Assembly (NCBI GenBank): GCA_003650545.1
Contig: QMQO01000010.1
Span: forward strand, 1 to 37,789
Reading direction: 5' to 3'
DNA: 37,789 bases
Origin: Candidatus Woesearchaeota archaeon
GTDB lineage: Archaea > Nanobdellota > Nanobdellia > Woesearchaeales > B72-G16
Part shown: positions 215 to 30,222 of the stretch, one piece after another
How positions within the stretch are numbered: position 1 is the stretch's first letter
Layout of the letters: the number at the start of each line of letters is the position of its first letter
The notes under the pieces: model-generated
What the model was told of the DNA's origin: nothing
The model's input: only the letters and a program-made list of their open reading frames with translations
The model's database searches: none
Position numbers and translations under genes: made by a program

Positions 215-952
215 TTAATGTGCAAAAAATGAATATATCCTAAGGCCTAGTTTGGCAATAGCTATTTTTATTGATTTGAAAAACCCAACCCCCTTGTACG
301 TTATTTTGCCTGTTTCCATCGCTTCTGTAAAAGTCATCTCTCTTCGGATAATATTTTCGATTGTTTCCATGTCAGTATAAACATTTACTGTCGGATTTTC
401 CAGTTCTCCTTTTGTGACTGTGATCATCTTTCCGTCTTTTGTCACAAACGAGATGCTTGCCTTTTTAATTTTTTCAATATAAAGGTTTACTCTCTCGTTT
501 TTGAAAAATTTCGCAACAGCAGGAGCTTTCTCAACATTTGAGTTATACATTTCCATCAATTGCTCCAAACTCTCATTGCTAAAATAATCCACCAGATAAA
601 ACTGCACAATGCTTTTCTGTATGTCTTTTCCAGTGACCAAAATGTCCCTTACACCAATCTGCGTTCCATCAGCTAGGACATCTGTTTCCCCATCAGCCAA
701 TTCATCAGTCATCTCTCCGTTTATACTGAACATTACTAACCTATCATCAGAGATATTGATAACCTTTACCTCGTAATCTTTGCCACCAACAACATAGGCT
801 CCCATATCACCTTCACTAAGAATACCAACTATGGTTTCTACTCCTATATTCAGACCATTGTTGCCATTATTTTTCAGAAGTTGCGCGTTTACAATGTACA
901 CCAACAAAAAAACGAATAGTATAAAACAAGTAAGTTTCCTTAGTTTCCTCAT
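215..952 (-). CDS. Secreted or membrane-anchored protein with SCP2-like C-terminal domain
   Basis: The 245-residue protein opens with a basic stretch and a hydrophobic segment (about residues 8-23) ending near Ala-Gln, which reads as a signal peptide or N-terminal anchor. Residues 40-125 form a beta-rich domain containing INGEMTDELADGET and DGTQIGVRDILV, a pattern I associate with small extracellular domains of DPANN archaea. Residues 145-240 resemble an SCP2 sterol-carrier fold: a strand pair (ISFVTKDGKMITVTKG), then a helix and the ending ITYKGVGFFKSIKIAIAKLG. SCP2 domains bind lipids, so a role at the outer face of the membrane is possible, but no ligand can be inferred. A TATA box (TTTTATAAA near 977-985) lies about 25 nt before the ATG, so the transcript is probably leaderless. 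The gene stands alone. Confidence 0.7.
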   Translation of the reverse strand: MRKLRKLTCFILFVFLLVYIVNAQLLKNNGNNGLNIGVETIVGILSEGDMGAYVVGGKDYEVKVINISDDRLVMFSINGEMTDELADGETDVLADGTQIGVRDILVTGKDIQKSIVQFYLVDYFSNESLEQLMEMYNSNVEKAPAVAKFFKNERVNLYIEKIKKASISFVTKDGKMITVTKGELENPTVNVYTDMETIENIIRREMTFTEAMETGKITYKGVGFFKSIKIAIAKLGLRIYSFFAH

Positions 953-11498: not shown

Positions 11499-14486
11499 TT
11501 ATCCCATCACAACGATTAGAGGTCTTAAGCGGACAACTCTTTTTGCTATACCGCTCTCGTGCATTATATCTACAACTTCATTAACATCTTTGTAGACTCC
11601 TGGCGCTTCCTCAGCTACACCTTTCAAAGAATGTCCCTTAACAATGATGCCTTGCTTTGCCATATCCCTTACAACATCAGAACCTCTGAATTGCCTCAAT
11701 GCTTGATGTCTGCTCATCACTCTTCCAGCACCATGGCAAGCAGAGCCAAATGTTTCATTCATCCCTTGTGCAGTACCATGTAATATATAACTATAAGTAC
11801 CCATTGTTCCACCGATTAGAACAGGTTGCCCTATCTTCATATATTTTTCAGGGATCTCCTCTCTTCCAGGACCAAATGCTCTTGTAGCACCTTTTCTCAT
11901 CACACATAGTTGCATTACATTGCCATTAACATCGTGTTTTTCTAGCTTTGCTGTGTTATGACCTATGTCATATAAAACTTCTATATCAGAATCCTTTAAC
12001 CCAAGCACAGGGCAGGTAGCTTGTCTAACTAGATGGGTTATAGCTTGTCTGTTTGAGAATGCCATGTTTATTCCACAATTCACTGCGGAAAAATACTTTT
12101 TGCCTTCTGGAGAGTTAAATGGTGCACAAACAAGTTCACGCTCTCTTATAGGTATTTTATATTTTTTAGATGCAGCATCGAGTTCTTTTAGATAATCTGT
12201 ACCAATCTGATGGCCATAGGCTCTACTGCCACAATGAATGCTTATTACTACTTGATCCTTCTTAAGATTGTAGGCTTTAGCTGCATCTTCATCGTATACT
12301 TCCTCAACATATTGCACCTCTAAGTAATGATTTCCGCTACCGAGAGTTCCTACTTGTTTTAGCTGTCTTTGTTTTGCTATATTACTTACGTTATCTGGAT
12401 TAGCACCAGCAACACAACCATGCTCTTCAGTATATTCAAGATCTTGTTTTAAGCCATAGCCAAGGTTTATGACATATTTTGCACCTTTCACAGCAACCTC
12501 ATCTAGCATGTCTGGATCCATCTTGATCTCACCCTTACTACCCAAACCTGCTGGTACTGTATTATATAGTGCATCTGTTAGCTGTTGTTGTATTTTTATT
12601 ACATCTTCTCTCATCAACGGTGTCCTCAATGTACGAACGCCACAATTTGATACTATTATATTATTTGCAATAAAGCTATGTGTTTTTGGTATGTTGAAAT
12701 CATAAACAAAACCATCATACCCCTCCTTCAAGATTACCTCAACCTTATCAAACAAGCAGCCAAATTCTTTAATTTCTCTTATTTTGGTTTTGACAAATTC
12801 ACTGAACGGCGGAAAGCTTAACGCTGTTTTTTGTTCAGCATTACGATGATAATGTCTTCTGATAAATCTTCTATTAATTATAGACGATCCTAATAACTTC
12901 TGAATCTCTTTAAGCGTTAATCCTTTTCTCTTTAAATCTTTGATTTTTAATGCAGCTTCTCTTCGTCTCTTGGTTAAAAGTTTTTTTTCTTTTATATACA
13001 ATATAGCTATTTGTGATAATAAGTTCTTCTTTTTGTTATAGCTAAAACCTATTCTTGACCACAATCGCAAAAGATTATCTTCATTTGAAGAGATTTTCAA
13101 TTTCAACCTATCGACAGGACCATGTTTATCGTGGTGATCTTTTCGTTGTAATAGTCTATGACAACCAACTCTAAATTCTTCCAATAGAGACATTAATTGT
13201 ATTACTATTTCTCGTCCAGAATTAACAACCTTTTTATTCTTGTCTATTGATATTGTAGGACAGGTTAAGCCAGTATTAGTATGAGCTATGGGAGACGAGA
13301 GCTCGGCTCCAAAGAATCCTGATAAAAACAATCTTTTTACCCATAGAGGACTTTCCATTATCCATTTTGGTATGGTATAAGGTGTTATAGTTTTTTCACC
13401 GCTAGGGAAACCTAATTTAAAAAAGAGCTTTACTAACAATTTAGAAGACACGCGCAACTCATGATTTTTTGTTGGTGATTCAACTTTGCTTTTAACTTTG
13501 CAATAATTATTAATTGTAACATCATGTTCTGTTGTACCAGTGTAGATCATCCCTGAAAAACCTAACCTGGTAAAATCACTTTGAATTTCTTTTAAATCAT
13601 CTTTTGGACCGCAAATGTTGAGATAACCATTTTGACTTGATATATAGACTCTTCTGGCACCAAATAAGTAACCAAATAACCTAATCAAAATAGGTAATTT
13701 AGGGTTCTTTAAGTTCAGTGGCAATAAGTTTCTTTTTTTTAATTCGTCTTTTTCTTGTTCCGTAAATGTATCTTCCCTAACAAGCACTCTGTCTTTGATA
13801 GTTTCTTGATATTCGCATCCTTCAAATGGATGAATTGCTATTTCTTGGCCTTTTCCCAAATCTCCAGATCGAACCATACCCATTTTTGTTAATATAGGAT
13901 GGTCTGCAGTGACATTAATAGTGTACCCCAATTTAGTTTTAATTTTCAGAATTGGTTCTGAATGCTTCCTCTTCATAATATAAAGAGCGTGTTTAGAAGA
14001 GAAACATTTCTGGTTAATATCAAATGAAACTAGTGACTGTATGTATTTCATTGATTTTAGGGTGTAGTCTGCATGAGCATTTTCAACTTCGATGAAGTCA
14101 GTCTCAAAATCTTTTATTTTCTTATAATAACCAAAGTCAGTAAGAATTCTAGAGTCCCCTGTCAAACAATTAATATCAAAGCCAACGCCTGCAACAGTTA
14201 TTATTCCATTCTCAATATCAAACGCACCAACACCACCAATTGGAAATCCATAGCCGGGATGTACATCAGGCATTGCTAAGCTTGCTTTCTGGATCCCTGG
14301 CAGCATAGCAACATTTCTTATTTGTGATAGAGCGTTCCATTGTTTACCAGCTTCAATATCTTTCTTCAGTTCATCAACAATATGGTCATTAGCATAGACC
14401 CGACCAGAAACTAACATTTCTCCCTCTTTAGGTATTTCATATACAAAATCTCTTATTTTTTTAATAGGAATTTTTTCTATACCCAT
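11499..14486 (-). CDS. rtcB: RNA-splicing ligase RtcB, intein-containing precursor
   Basis: RtcB joins 2',3'-cyclic phosphate and 5'-OH ends, including tRNA exons, using GTP and Mn2+. The 995-residue precursor contains a 508-residue intein (residues 107-614). Without it RtcB is 487 residues, normal for the family. The extein junction is GVGFDIN / CGVRTLRTPL, so the intein sits directly before the metal-binding cysteine. Downstream, GSGNHYLEV, SIHCGSRAYGHQIG and CHGAGRVMSR supply metal and GMP-binding residues. The ribosome binding site AAGGTGAT lies 32 nt after archease, forming a two-gene operon with its activator. The two tRNAs in this window need this ligase to mature. Confidence 0.97.
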   Translation of the reverse strand: MGIEKIPIKKIRDFVYEIPKEGEMLVSGRVYANDHIVDELKKDIEAGKQWNALSQIRNVAMLPGIQKASLAMPDVHPGYGFPIGGVGAFDIENGIITVAGVGFDINCLTGDSRILTDFGYYKKIKDFETDFIEVENAHADYTLKSMKYIQSLVSFDINQKCFSSKHALYIMKRKHSEPILKIKTKLGYTINVTADHPILTKMGMVRSGDLGKGQEIAIHPFEGCEYQETIKDRVLVREDTFTEQEKDELKKRNLLPLNLKNPKLPILIRLFGYLFGARRVYISSQNGYLNICGPKDDLKEIQSDFTRLGFSGMIYTGTTEHDVTINNYCKVKSKVESPTKNHELRVSSKLLVKLFFKLGFPSGEKTITPYTIPKWIMESPLWVKRLFLSGFFGAELSSPIAHTNTGLTCPTISIDKNKKVVNSGREIVIQLMSLLEEFRVGCHRLLQRKDHHDKHGPVDRLKLKISSNEDNLLRLWSRIGFSYNKKKNLLSQIAILYIKEKKLLTKRRREAALKIKDLKRKGLTLKEIQKLLGSSIINRRFIRRHYHRNAEQKTALSFPPFSEFVKTKIREIKEFGCLFDKVEVILKEGYDGFVYDFNIPKTHSFIANNIIVSNCGVRTLRTPLMREDVIKIQQQLTDALYNTVPAGLGSKGEIKMDPDMLDEVAVKGAKYVINLGYGLKQDLEYTEEHGCVAGANPDNVSNIAKQRQLKQVGTLGSGNHYLEVQYVEEVYDEDAAKAYNLKKDQVVISIHCGSRAYGHQIGTDYLKELDAASKKYKIPIRERELVCAPFNSPEGKKYFSAVNCGINMAFSNRQAITHLVRQATCPVLGLKDSDIEVLYDIGHNTAKLEKHDVNGNVMQLCVMRKGATRAFGPGREEIPEKYMKIGQPVLIGGTMGTYSYILHGTAQGMNETFGSACHGAGRVMSRHQALRQFRGSDVVRDMAKQGIIVKGHSLKGVAEEAPGVYKDVNEVVDIMHESGIAKRVVRLRPLIVVMG
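12645..14168 (-). mobile_element. Intein within RtcB
   Basis: This is a 508-residue in-frame protein intron. Block A is CLTGDSRILTDFGYY (Cys1 nucleophile). Block B contains VTADHPIL (TxxH). The C-terminal blocks are YDFNIPKTHSFIANN and IIVSN, followed by Cys+1 of the extein. The penultimate residue is Ser where His is usual. The central part resembles a LAGLIDADG homing endonuclease, with LFGYLFGARRVY and FLSGFFGAEL at the two motif positions. The first lacks its acidic residue and the second is altered, so the nuclease is probably dead while splicing must still work to give RtcB. The insertion site is at the conserved active-site cysteine, typical for inteins. Confidence 0.93.
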
Positions 14487-25260: not shown

Positions 25261-25617
25261 TAAATAGCTTTTTCTTTGATTAAAAAAATCTCTAAAAATT
25301 GGTATAGGTTTAATATGAGCTAATACAAATCAAGTTGGTTAGGTTGATGTAGCAGTAATAGAGAATAGATTCACAGAAACTTTAGAGGAGGTTATTCCAA
25401 AACTTGGAAAATCAAACTTTTTTTAGACATCAAGAGAGTGGTAGAATTTTTTAGGTGAAAATTCTTAATAGTTCCAAACACAAATCTTGACACAATCTTA
25501 TAGATGAATAAAATCTAGTAGATAAATATAAAAACAAAAGAGAATTATTCGTGCTTTAATAGAAAAATAGAAACACTTTGAAAATAAACAAGAAAATTTG
25601 GTAAAGAGGTGAGAAAA
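25261..25617. other. Intergenic region with a possible gene fragment
   Basis: In the plus frame from 25343, without a start codon, the translation VAVIENRFTETLEEVIPKLG continues for seven residues to a stop at 25424-25426; a shift of one base extends it to FLDIKRVVEFFR. It looks protein-like but too short to place. The rest is A+T rich, and the last 15 nt hold the GAGGTGA ribosome binding site of the next gene. Confidence 0.3.
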
Positions 25618-26046
25618 ATGGCAAGGAAAAATCCTCAGGATCGCGGCATGGGTGTGTTTCGCGATTGGGTAGATCATTTAAGAAATGCTTCGAAAGACAA
25701 GATCATTCTAGTGCAATACAAAACAGACAAAGATGAACTTGAACAACTTGGTATAAAAAACATTCTTTATTTGACAAAACCGGAATACAAAGTAATAGAA
25801 CAAATAGCATCTACAAGCAAAGAATGTATTCTTCTATTTAATGTGAATGATAAGAGTAACGAACTCTGCCAGAAAATAAGAGCAAAGTTAGAAGAAAATG
25901 GTGTAAAGGTTAATACACGATTTAGAAAACTAATGTTCACAACCGATATGAGGGAAATCCGTGGTTTAATAAAATACATCCGAAACAAAGCAACTTGGGA
26001 AGAAGGAAAAAGGGTTGCAATTGATATCTTTCCTGAAAAAAAATAA
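25618..26046 (+). CDS. TOPRIM-like protein with altered catalytic residues
   Basis: The 142-residue protein follows the small archaeal TOPRIM fold: KIILVQYKTDKDELEQLGI for strand 1 (usual VEGKxD with glutamate, here Gln), IKNILYLTKPEYKVIEQIA, ILLFNVNDKSNELCQKI at the DxD position (Asn-Val-Asn-Asp instead), and VKVNTRFRKLMF. Relatives include RNase M5-like proteins. Loss of the glutamate and first aspartate suggests a binding protein without nuclease activity. The ribosome binding site AGGTGA sits 6 nt before the ATG at 25618; the GTG inside it is not the start. Confidence 0.65.
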   Translation: MARKNPQDRGMGVFRDWVDHLRNASKDKIILVQYKTDKDELEQLGIKNILYLTKPEYKVIEQIASTSKECILLFNVNDKSNELCQKIRAKLEENGVKVNTRFRKLMFTTDMREIRGLIKYIRNKATWEEGKRVAIDIFPEKK

Positions 26047-26118
26047 AACACATTGTGATTTAATTACAATTAAAATTTTTAATTATGATTAGAATTATTA
26101 AATAGAAAAATTCATGGG

Positions 26119-26214
26119 AGCTGACGTCTAAGCTTAGACTGAACTTTTCTTTCGAAAAATTCTTTATCAATAATATTTCTATTATTGATTGGTGTCTAAG
26201 TAACTCCGTCAGCT
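26119..26214 (-). ncRNA. Novel structured RNA: three-way junction with two GAAA-capped hairpins
   Basis: On the minus strand the 96 nt parse completely. P1 AGCTGACG pairs with CGTCAGCT at the ends, with a 6x6 internal loop (GAGTTA/CTTAGA) that can form tandem G-A pairs. P2 is CTTAGAC/GTCTAAG. Inside, hairpin P3 is TCAATAATA-GAAA-TATTATTGA and hairpin P4 is GAATTTTTC-GAAA-GAAAAGTTC (one G-U). The minus strand is favoured because both loops are GNRA tetraloops there (TTTC on the plus strand) and the single irregular pair is G-U (it would be C-A on the plus strand). GTCTA-AGCT-TAGAC is an alternative hairpin using one P2 strand. A T-rich tail (AATTTTTCT) follows. No protein frame is present. The family is unknown to me. 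Confidence 0.7.
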
Positions 26215-26236: not shown

Positions 26237-26244
26237 TATTTAAA
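26237..26244 (-). promoter_or_regulatory. TATA box for the structured RNA
   Basis: TTTAAATA on the minus strand is centred 26 nt before the first base of P1 and is preceded by purine-rich AAAAGA (a BRE-like element). The spacing predicts transcription starting exactly at the 5' end of the structure. Confidence 0.55.
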
Positions 26245-26327: not shown

Positions 26328-27044
26328 ATGAACCAAATTCTGGTGGAAGCTGGATTAACAGACTCTGAAGCCAAAGTTTATCTTACTTTGTTGGACCTCG
26401 GCATGGATCTTGCAGGAACCATAGCTAGAAAATCTGGCATTCATAGACGGTCTGTTTATGATATCTTGGATAGACTTATTGAAAAAGGCTTAGTTAGTTA
26501 TATTGTAAAAAATAATCAACGCCATTACGAAGCAACAGACCCAATTAGATTAATAGAGTTGTTAAAGGAAAAAGAAAGAAAGATTCAAGAGGTGCTTCCT
26601 CGGCTACAATTAAAATACTCGATGACTCGCGAGAAACAAGAAACAAATTTCTACCGTGGTAAAAACGGACTAAAGACTGTGTTTGAAGATCAATTAAAAG
26701 AGGGAAAAGAAATCTTAATATTTGGGGCAAATGTTGATGTTAATGAGGTTATTAAGTTTTACTTCCCACATTTTGATAGAGCTCGCGTCCAGAAAAAGAT
26801 TAAGGTTAAGTTTATCTTTAGCGAAGATGCCAGAGACAATCCTGCCATAAAAAAGATTCCTCTAAAAGAAGTCAGGTATATTCCTAAAGGCTTTTCGAGC
26901 CCTGCAGCCACATACATTTACGGTAATAAGGTTGCGATTATTCTGTGGAGCGAAAATCCACTTGCAATTCTTATCAAACAGAAAGAAATAGCAGATAACT
27001 ATAAACAGTTCTTTAAATTTGTCTGGGATAGTGCTAAAAAATGA
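26328..27044 (+). CDS. TrmB-family transcriptional regulator
   Basis: The 238-residue protein has an N-terminal winged helix (LVEAGLTDSEAKVYLTLLDL, IARKSGIHRRSVYDILDRLI, EKGLVSYIVKNNQRHYEA) typical of TrmB. A linker coiled coil follows (LIELLKEKERKIQEVLPRL), then the phospholipase D-like effector fold with FYRGKNGLKTVFEDQLKEGK. TrmB proteins sense sugars or other small ligands and repress or activate transport and metabolic genes. The C-terminal sugar-binding domain of full TrmB is absent. The start is leaderless, with AAGATATATAAAC at about 26297. Confidence 0.93.
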   Translation: MNQILVEAGLTDSEAKVYLTLLDLGMDLAGTIARKSGIHRRSVYDILDRLIEKGLVSYIVKNNQRHYEATDPIRLIELLKEKERKIQEVLPRLQLKYSMTREKQETNFYRGKNGLKTVFEDQLKEGKEILIFGANVDVNEVIKFYFPHFDRARVQKKIKVKFIFSEDARDNPAIKKIPLKEVRYIPKGFSSPAATYIYGNKVAIILWSENPLAILIKQKEIADNYKQFFKFVWDSAKK

Positions 27045-29760: not shown

Positions 29761-29874
29761 ATATCCAGAAAACCACAATCTTTATAAACCAACCCCAATT
29801 CTACAATCAAAGAGAGAGAAGAAGACGCTGGGTAGGGAATCCACGTTTTCTGGATATTGATAGGAGAGATTCCC
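29761..29874 (+). promoter_or_regulatory. rnp2 promoter and structured leader
   Basis: A TATA box (CTTTATAAACC, about 29780) predicts a leader of roughly 65 nt. ATATCCAGAAAAC (29761-29773) and GTTTTCTGGATAT (29845-29857) are perfect inverted copies on either side of it. Inside the leader GGGAATC (29835-29841) pairs with GATTCCC (29868-29874), whose last base touches the start codon, and the ribosome binding site TAGGAG lies in the loop. ATCCA/TGGAT forms a nested stem. The leader could control Rnp2 translation. Confidence 0.5.
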
Positions 29875-30222
29875 ATGAGGGTTAAACCAATATTACCAAG
29901 TTTAAAAGAGAAAAAACGTTATCTTGCTTATGAAATTATAGCAGATAAAAGGATAGACGCACAATCTGCAGAAGATGTAATAACCAAAACTAGTTTAGAT
30001 TATCTAGGCGCTCTAGGATATGGAGAAGCAGGAATTCAAGTTTTGAAAGAGACTCATGATAATAACCGCGGTCTAATTAGAGTTGGCCACAAGCATGTCG
30101 ATAGACTCAAGGCAGCACTAATTTTTATCACAAAAATAAAAAACCAAAATGTAATTGTGCGCTCTCTTGGTGTGAGTGGCGTGATCAAGAAAGCAAAAGA
30201 AAAATACTTGGAGGCAAAATGA
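29875..30222 (+). CDS. rnp2: RNase P protein component 2 (Pop5/Rpp14 family)
   Basis: Rnp2 (archaeal Pop5) is a protein subunit of RNase P, which trims tRNA 5' leaders; it pairs with Rnp3 on the catalytic RNA. The 115-residue frame begins MRVKPILPSLKEKKRYLAYE, exactly the family's start, and includes YGEAGIQVLKETHDNNRGLI and RVGHKHVDRLKAALIFI. The ATG at 29875 is preferred over a TTG 18 nt earlier because of the family alignment and the GGAG ribosome binding site. Its stop overlaps the next start. It lies upstream of the psmA-SBDS-exosome genes, a conserved archaeal neighbourhood. Confidence 0.93.
   Translation: MRVKPILPSLKEKKRYLAYEIIADKRIDAQSAEDVITKTSLDYLGALGYGEAGIQVLKETHDNNRGLIRVGHKHVDRLKAALIFITKIKNQNVIVRSLGVSGVIKKAKEKYLEAK

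Follow-up and report, generated by a model that had tools for sequence, protein, structure and literature searches.

Positions 26119–26214 of the window (the whole stretch of 37,789 nt of Woesearchaeota DNA that was analyzed) carry, on the minus strand, a member of a real and previously undescribed RNA family. On our reading, which we consider reasonably probable, this is a stand-alone noncoding RNA gene of a new Woesearchaeota family, in which a bulge-helix-bulge (BHB) motif releases a 73-nt RNA, possibly circular, as the working product.

An intergenic three-way junction with its own promoter

The 96-nt block is intergenic, lying between a plus-strand gene whose 145-aa product partially matches the PRK04017 family (25609–26046) and a plus-strand gene for a TrmB-type regulator (26328–27044). 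Folding of the minus strand from 26214 to 26119 gave one three-way junction over the whole block, as the preliminary description had proposed, with an MFE of −37.3 kcal/mol vs. −12.4 ± 2.9 for shuffled sequences (z −8.55; 0 of 200 shuffles as stable). The RNA, running from P1 to P1′, comprises an 8-bp P1 (5′ strand 26207–26214, 3′ strand 26119–26126), a 6×6 loop, a 7-bp P2 (5′ strand 26194–26199, 3′ strand 26134–26139), and the hairpins P3 (26166–26189) and P4 (26141–26162), all on the minus strand. Both hairpins are capped by GAAA, as described earlier; the 9 bp then assigned to each hold for P4, but P3 has 10 bp. The plus strand of the same block is also foldable (MFE −31.5 kcal/mol), and because it folds nearly as well, fold energy alone cannot pick the strand. 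The minus strand, which had been preferred from the outset, was retained on the basis of TATA box placement, loop identity, and bulge polarity: GNRA or UUCG loops in homologs sit on the minus-equivalent strand only, and both bulges of the core lie 3′ of the central helix only on the strand that carries the TATA box.

The TATA box itself, TTTAAATA, occupies 26237–26244 on the minus strand, 30 nt upstream of the RNA 5′ end. Across the homologous loci of the order, a TATA box (at least 7 of 8 matches) starts 26 to 34 nt before P1 in 12 of 13 cases, compared with 4.6% of control positions, and the thirteenth locus has a weaker one; five of these loci belong to one genus and are not independent, leaving nine independent groups. 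The suggestion that the RNA stands alone on the minus strand under its own promoter was thus borne out, as was the report of a T-run 3′ of the RNA end (26106–26110, minus strand), which is terminator-like and has counterparts in T-rich stretches downstream of the RNA at most loci. A riboswitch was dropped from consideration, since the RNA has its own promoter and no sense-oriented gene lies downstream.

In agreement with the earlier statement that the RNA fits no known class, Rfam 15 at the gathering threshold gave no match for the window RNA, its subthreshold matches being at chance level, and no gathering-score match among the five homologous loci tested; a literature search returned no description of such an RNA family. 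tRNA in its intron-containing, split, or permuted forms was rejected, as ARAGORN reported none and loop position 33 is A or G, not U33. SRP RNA was rejected given no RF01857 match in the window and a copy elsewhere in the genome (C6:34236–34509), and RNase P RNA (RF00373) given the genome's copy at C14:22145–22436. Separately, an ORF in the window (29857–30222, plus strand) encodes an RNase P protein component 2-like protein that scored under the curated cut-off.

Homologs and a covarying bulge-helix-bulge core

DNA similarity searches of the window's own genome and 60 relatives returned only AT-rich noise apart from the window copy. Covariance searches covered 353 genomes of the window's order, with only about 12 candidates scored per genome. 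A single-sequence model reached G018 (E 1.8e-7) and, within a single genus, five further genomes; a second model built on those seven sequences added G227, G243, G050, and G170, and G011 and another copy in G050 came from a third. The total for the order was 13 loci in 12 genomes and seven families, with E values from 1e-17 to 1e-4 (353 genomes, about 12 candidates scored in each). Weak matches from the first model (L036–L040) and the second (L045–L050) were dropped, their core pairs being broken or the matches absent from the third-model results. The three-way junction was kept at 13 of 13 loci. Flanking genes differed from family to family, and the RNA is therefore not bound to one neighbor gene. 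A GTDB-wide pattern scan gave eight matches in archaeal assemblies (five Woesearchaeota, two Nanoarchaeota, and one labelled Methanosarcinales), all on contigs already found in the searches of the order; five of the eight were submitted to a pairing test, and all five passed. Matches in Vibrio and Acetatifactor failed this test and were rejected. Scanning viral contigs for the long form produced no matches, and six short-form matches on such contigs were coding-sequence coincidences, four of them representing the same gene.

Every homolog has, in place of the 6×6 loop, the tetranucleotide pattern N-R-G-Y on the 5′ side and R-C-Y-N on the 3′ side, each with 3 nt after it. The two tetranucleotides base-pair: GAGU (26203–26206, minus strand) with GCUU (26130–26133, minus strand) in the window, UAGC/GCUA in G018, AAGC/GCUU in G243, AGGU/ACCU in G227, and GAGC/GCUC elsewhere. 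Among 15 distinct core sequences, 14 of 17 core pairs changed on both sides and 39 cells did so, with 0 of 500 shuffles reaching either value; the compensatory changes that the preliminary description had named as support for its fold were thus found in the family. Central and inner helices were 100% paired in these 15 sequences, three of four central pairs and all five tested P2 pairs changing on both sides, and P1 and P2, the helices either side of the motif, both covary. Sliding the partner strand by one to three columns lowered pairing from 92% to between 30 and 45%, and an alternative register (3 bp plus C15–G82) scored slightly below the 4-bp central helix. Some core sequences came from core models or patterns, which biases them toward pairing at a few fixed positions, not toward changes at variable ones. 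Both bulges are exactly 3 nt in 15 of 15 core sequences from two orders; in the window they are UAC on the 5′ side (26200–26202, minus strand), where AAC predominates in the family, and AGA on the 3′ side (26127–26129, minus strand).

Judged from sequence, the symmetric loop is therefore a canonical BHB, with 4 bp between two 3-nt bulges, and it has the flanking helices (P1 as outer helix h, P2 as inner helix h′) and the bulge polarity of a canonical hBHBh′ motif. The tandem G-A pairs once proposed for this loop give way to the covarying helix, and the statement that the RNA is not a simple guide RNA stands, although the BHB processing motif had been missed. An H/ACA guide was likewise rejected here, as CCCAUG follows P1′ and the would-be pocket is the paired BHB. 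Two further proposals did not survive comparison with the relatives. Tertiary docking through GNRA loops is at odds with the occurrence of UUCG on P4 or on both hairpins; P3 and P4 differ in length and sequence, P3 being capped by GCAA, GUAA, or UUCG as well as GAAA, and P4 by UUCG in most relatives. A conformational switch through GTCTA-AGCT-TAGAC is confined to the window copy, the corresponding stretch of relatives (e.g., CUAAGCUAUGU, CUAAGCUCGUA) being unable to form it.

We also asked what else could produce this pattern. The likeness to a BHB might be coincidental, the molecule being an ordinary structured RNA in which two asymmetric bulges lie opposed and which serves some other role, and a structural BHB scan of the whole G011 genome (532 kb) did return chance matches that scored as high as the true copy. 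Against this, 3-nt bulges, correct polarity, and a 4-bp helix covarying in 15 core sequences from two orders make coincidence improbable in our judgment. The 16S flanks of G011, examined for comparison, contained no BHB; in the same genome, a tRNA-Ala just 3′ of the 16S rRNA (L083, about 2200–2450) seemingly has two introns, in the anticodon loop and the T arm, as read by eye. That the block functions as DNA, i.e., as a MITE, an IS200/IS605-like hairpin end, a folded recombination site, or a simple palindrome, is hardly credible. Its ends are inverted repeats, and the layout of arm, unpaired spacer, and arm is like that of folded recombination sites, whereas the element is single copy in its own genome and usually so in relatives, has a promoter at a fixed distance, covaries, and lies between flanks without visible target duplication.

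Predicted processing and its product

In archaeal introns, each of the two bulges is found 3′ of the central helix on the strand concerned, and cleavage occurs after the second bulge nucleotide; the bulges of the window RNA match this polarity. The BHB substrate of the archaeal splicing endonuclease is defined as two 3-nt bulges separated by a 4-nt helix (PMC7714728, PMC6379350; see also PMC4731332). EndA was found in 11 of the 12 carriers in the order, the single miss being a draft genome. The window genome encodes a single-domain EndA of 176 aa that aligned end to end with M. jannaschii EndA (1a79) and carries the conserved Tyr, His, and Lys motifs; as the sole EndA match in the genome, it is probably a homotetramer. 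Only (αβ)2 and ε2 enzymes remove relaxed motifs efficiently (PMC6379350), and the probable homotetramer falls outside these two types; the motif here is canonical. RtcB was present in 14 of 14 carriers across both orders, and in the window is encoded 12 kb from the RNA gene (11499–14486, minus strand) as a 995-aa protein with an intein inside (Intein_splicing 134–614); RtcB of G536, a carrier in the other order, has an insertion similar to this intein. Since EndA and RtcB are found in nearly all archaea, their presence discriminates little.

Under the processing scheme that we propose, transcription would proceed from the RNA's own TATA box, starting at the 5′ end of P1. P1, the 4-bp helix bounded by the two 3-nt bulges, and P2 would present a canonical BHB, and EndA would cut each bulge after its second nucleotide, that is, by the BHB rule, between 26201 and 26200 and between 26128 and 26127. 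These cuts would free the inner P2-P3-P4 three-way junction of 73 nt (26128–26200, minus strand); RtcB would probably circularize it, and flanks of 14 and 9 nt would be left over. The gene would then amount to an intron with almost no exons, whose purpose is to produce a small structured RNA. With cuts at the same place, the predicted inner product is 62 to 75 nt in all relatives with the three-way junction. We infer cutting, circularity, and a working role of the inner RNA, which is favored as the product because the junction is kept throughout the order and the flanks are minimal for a BHB. Given a constant shape despite variable hairpin sequences, our likeliest guess for its role is a scaffold or protein binding.

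Alternatively, the RNA may remain uncut and use the double bulge to bind a protein, either EndA, as a decoy or regulator, or another protein. The 5′ bulge and its neighbors are conserved beyond the needs of pairing, which speaks for such a role. A canonical cleavable substrate has exactly this geometry, however, and a catalytic EndA is present; we regard an uncut RNA as quite unlikely.

A pattern search of 357 genomes of the class found two genomes of another order, G610 and G536, in which this core encloses a short UUCG hairpin, and when 103 genomes of that order were then searched, the same two carriers came up and no others; a match in G542 was rejected for having no inner helix. An intergenic stretch of G610 (L071, 1490–1840, minus strand) contains five BHB-like hairpins in tandem, the core being one of them; a strict 3-4-3 scan takes two of the five, and the other three were read from the fold and by eye. 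Hairpins 2 and 4 have an identical 49-nt inner sequence, which suggests duplication or movement of the inner part. In G536, the inner part is only a 33-nt short hairpin, and a second likely BHB hairpin of the GAAG...CUUC type (L051, about 330–400, minus strand) lies just upstream with a shared TATA box, as seen by eye. Both genomes keep the outer sequence GGUG-NAGCAA...ACACC and not the inner part; the outer part could matter, since it persists while the inner part is reduced to a short hairpin.

The outer part might even be the product, with EndA discarding the inner intron and the flanks joining as a hairpin with the 7-nt loop NAGCAAN, strung five in a row in G610. Conservation of the outer sequence across two orders, one with a three-way junction inside it and the other with no more than a simple hairpin, speaks for this, as do the five G610 hairpins in one transcript, two of them sharing their inner sequence. 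The size of the loop is no evidence, because any canonical BHB leaves one of 7 nt. In the window and most relatives, however, the joined flanks would amount to only about 23 nt plus a tail, and preservation of the three-way junction at every locus of the order is unexpected of a discarded intron; we therefore consider this alternative unlikely. Returning to the inner RNA as product, we tentatively extend the proposal, at somewhat less than even confidence, to DPANN "intron-only" RNA genes that stand singly in one order and form arrays of two to five in another, and through which the tRNA-splicing machinery would mass-produce small functional circular RNAs.

Comparison with known BHB substrates

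BHB splicing has so far been known from tRNA introns, pre-rRNA, permuted SRP RNA, and two mRNA cases. If our reading is correct, a free-standing, conserved, BHB-built RNA gene would constitute a new class of EndA substrate and would offer a simple origin, amenable to testing, for small circular RNAs in uncultured DPANN archaea. The natural variation of flanks, central helix, and bulges among relatives also makes the family well suited to probing EndA specificity.

The closest parallels differ in what is released and from where. The circular permuted SRP RNA of Thermoproteus is, like the window RNA, the product of a non-tRNA gene whose ends form a BHB behind a short leader (23 nt in Thermoproteus), and the circularization by EndA and RtcB proposed there resembles the scheme predicted here (PMC4731332); unlike it, the window RNA is a 96-nt three-way junction in a genome with a normal SRP RNA elsewhere. 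Introns of tRNA, of cbf5 mRNA, and of the HVO_1309 5′ UTR share the canonical 3-4-3 BHB, and their excised part is circularized by ligase (PMC7714728), yet these lie inside host RNAs, whereas the window gene is almost only intron and has its own promoter. In circular pre-16S and pre-23S rRNA intermediates, a BHB in a long-range processing stem frees the inner RNA (PMC7714728), as predicted for the window RNA, although its product would be about 73 nt and is not rRNA. Archaeal H/ACA and C/D guide RNAs are similarly small and stand-alone; in contrast to them, the window RNA has no Rfam match, no ACA after the stem, no C/D boxes, and no unpaired conserved guide stretch, and has instead the paired core of a canonical BHB.
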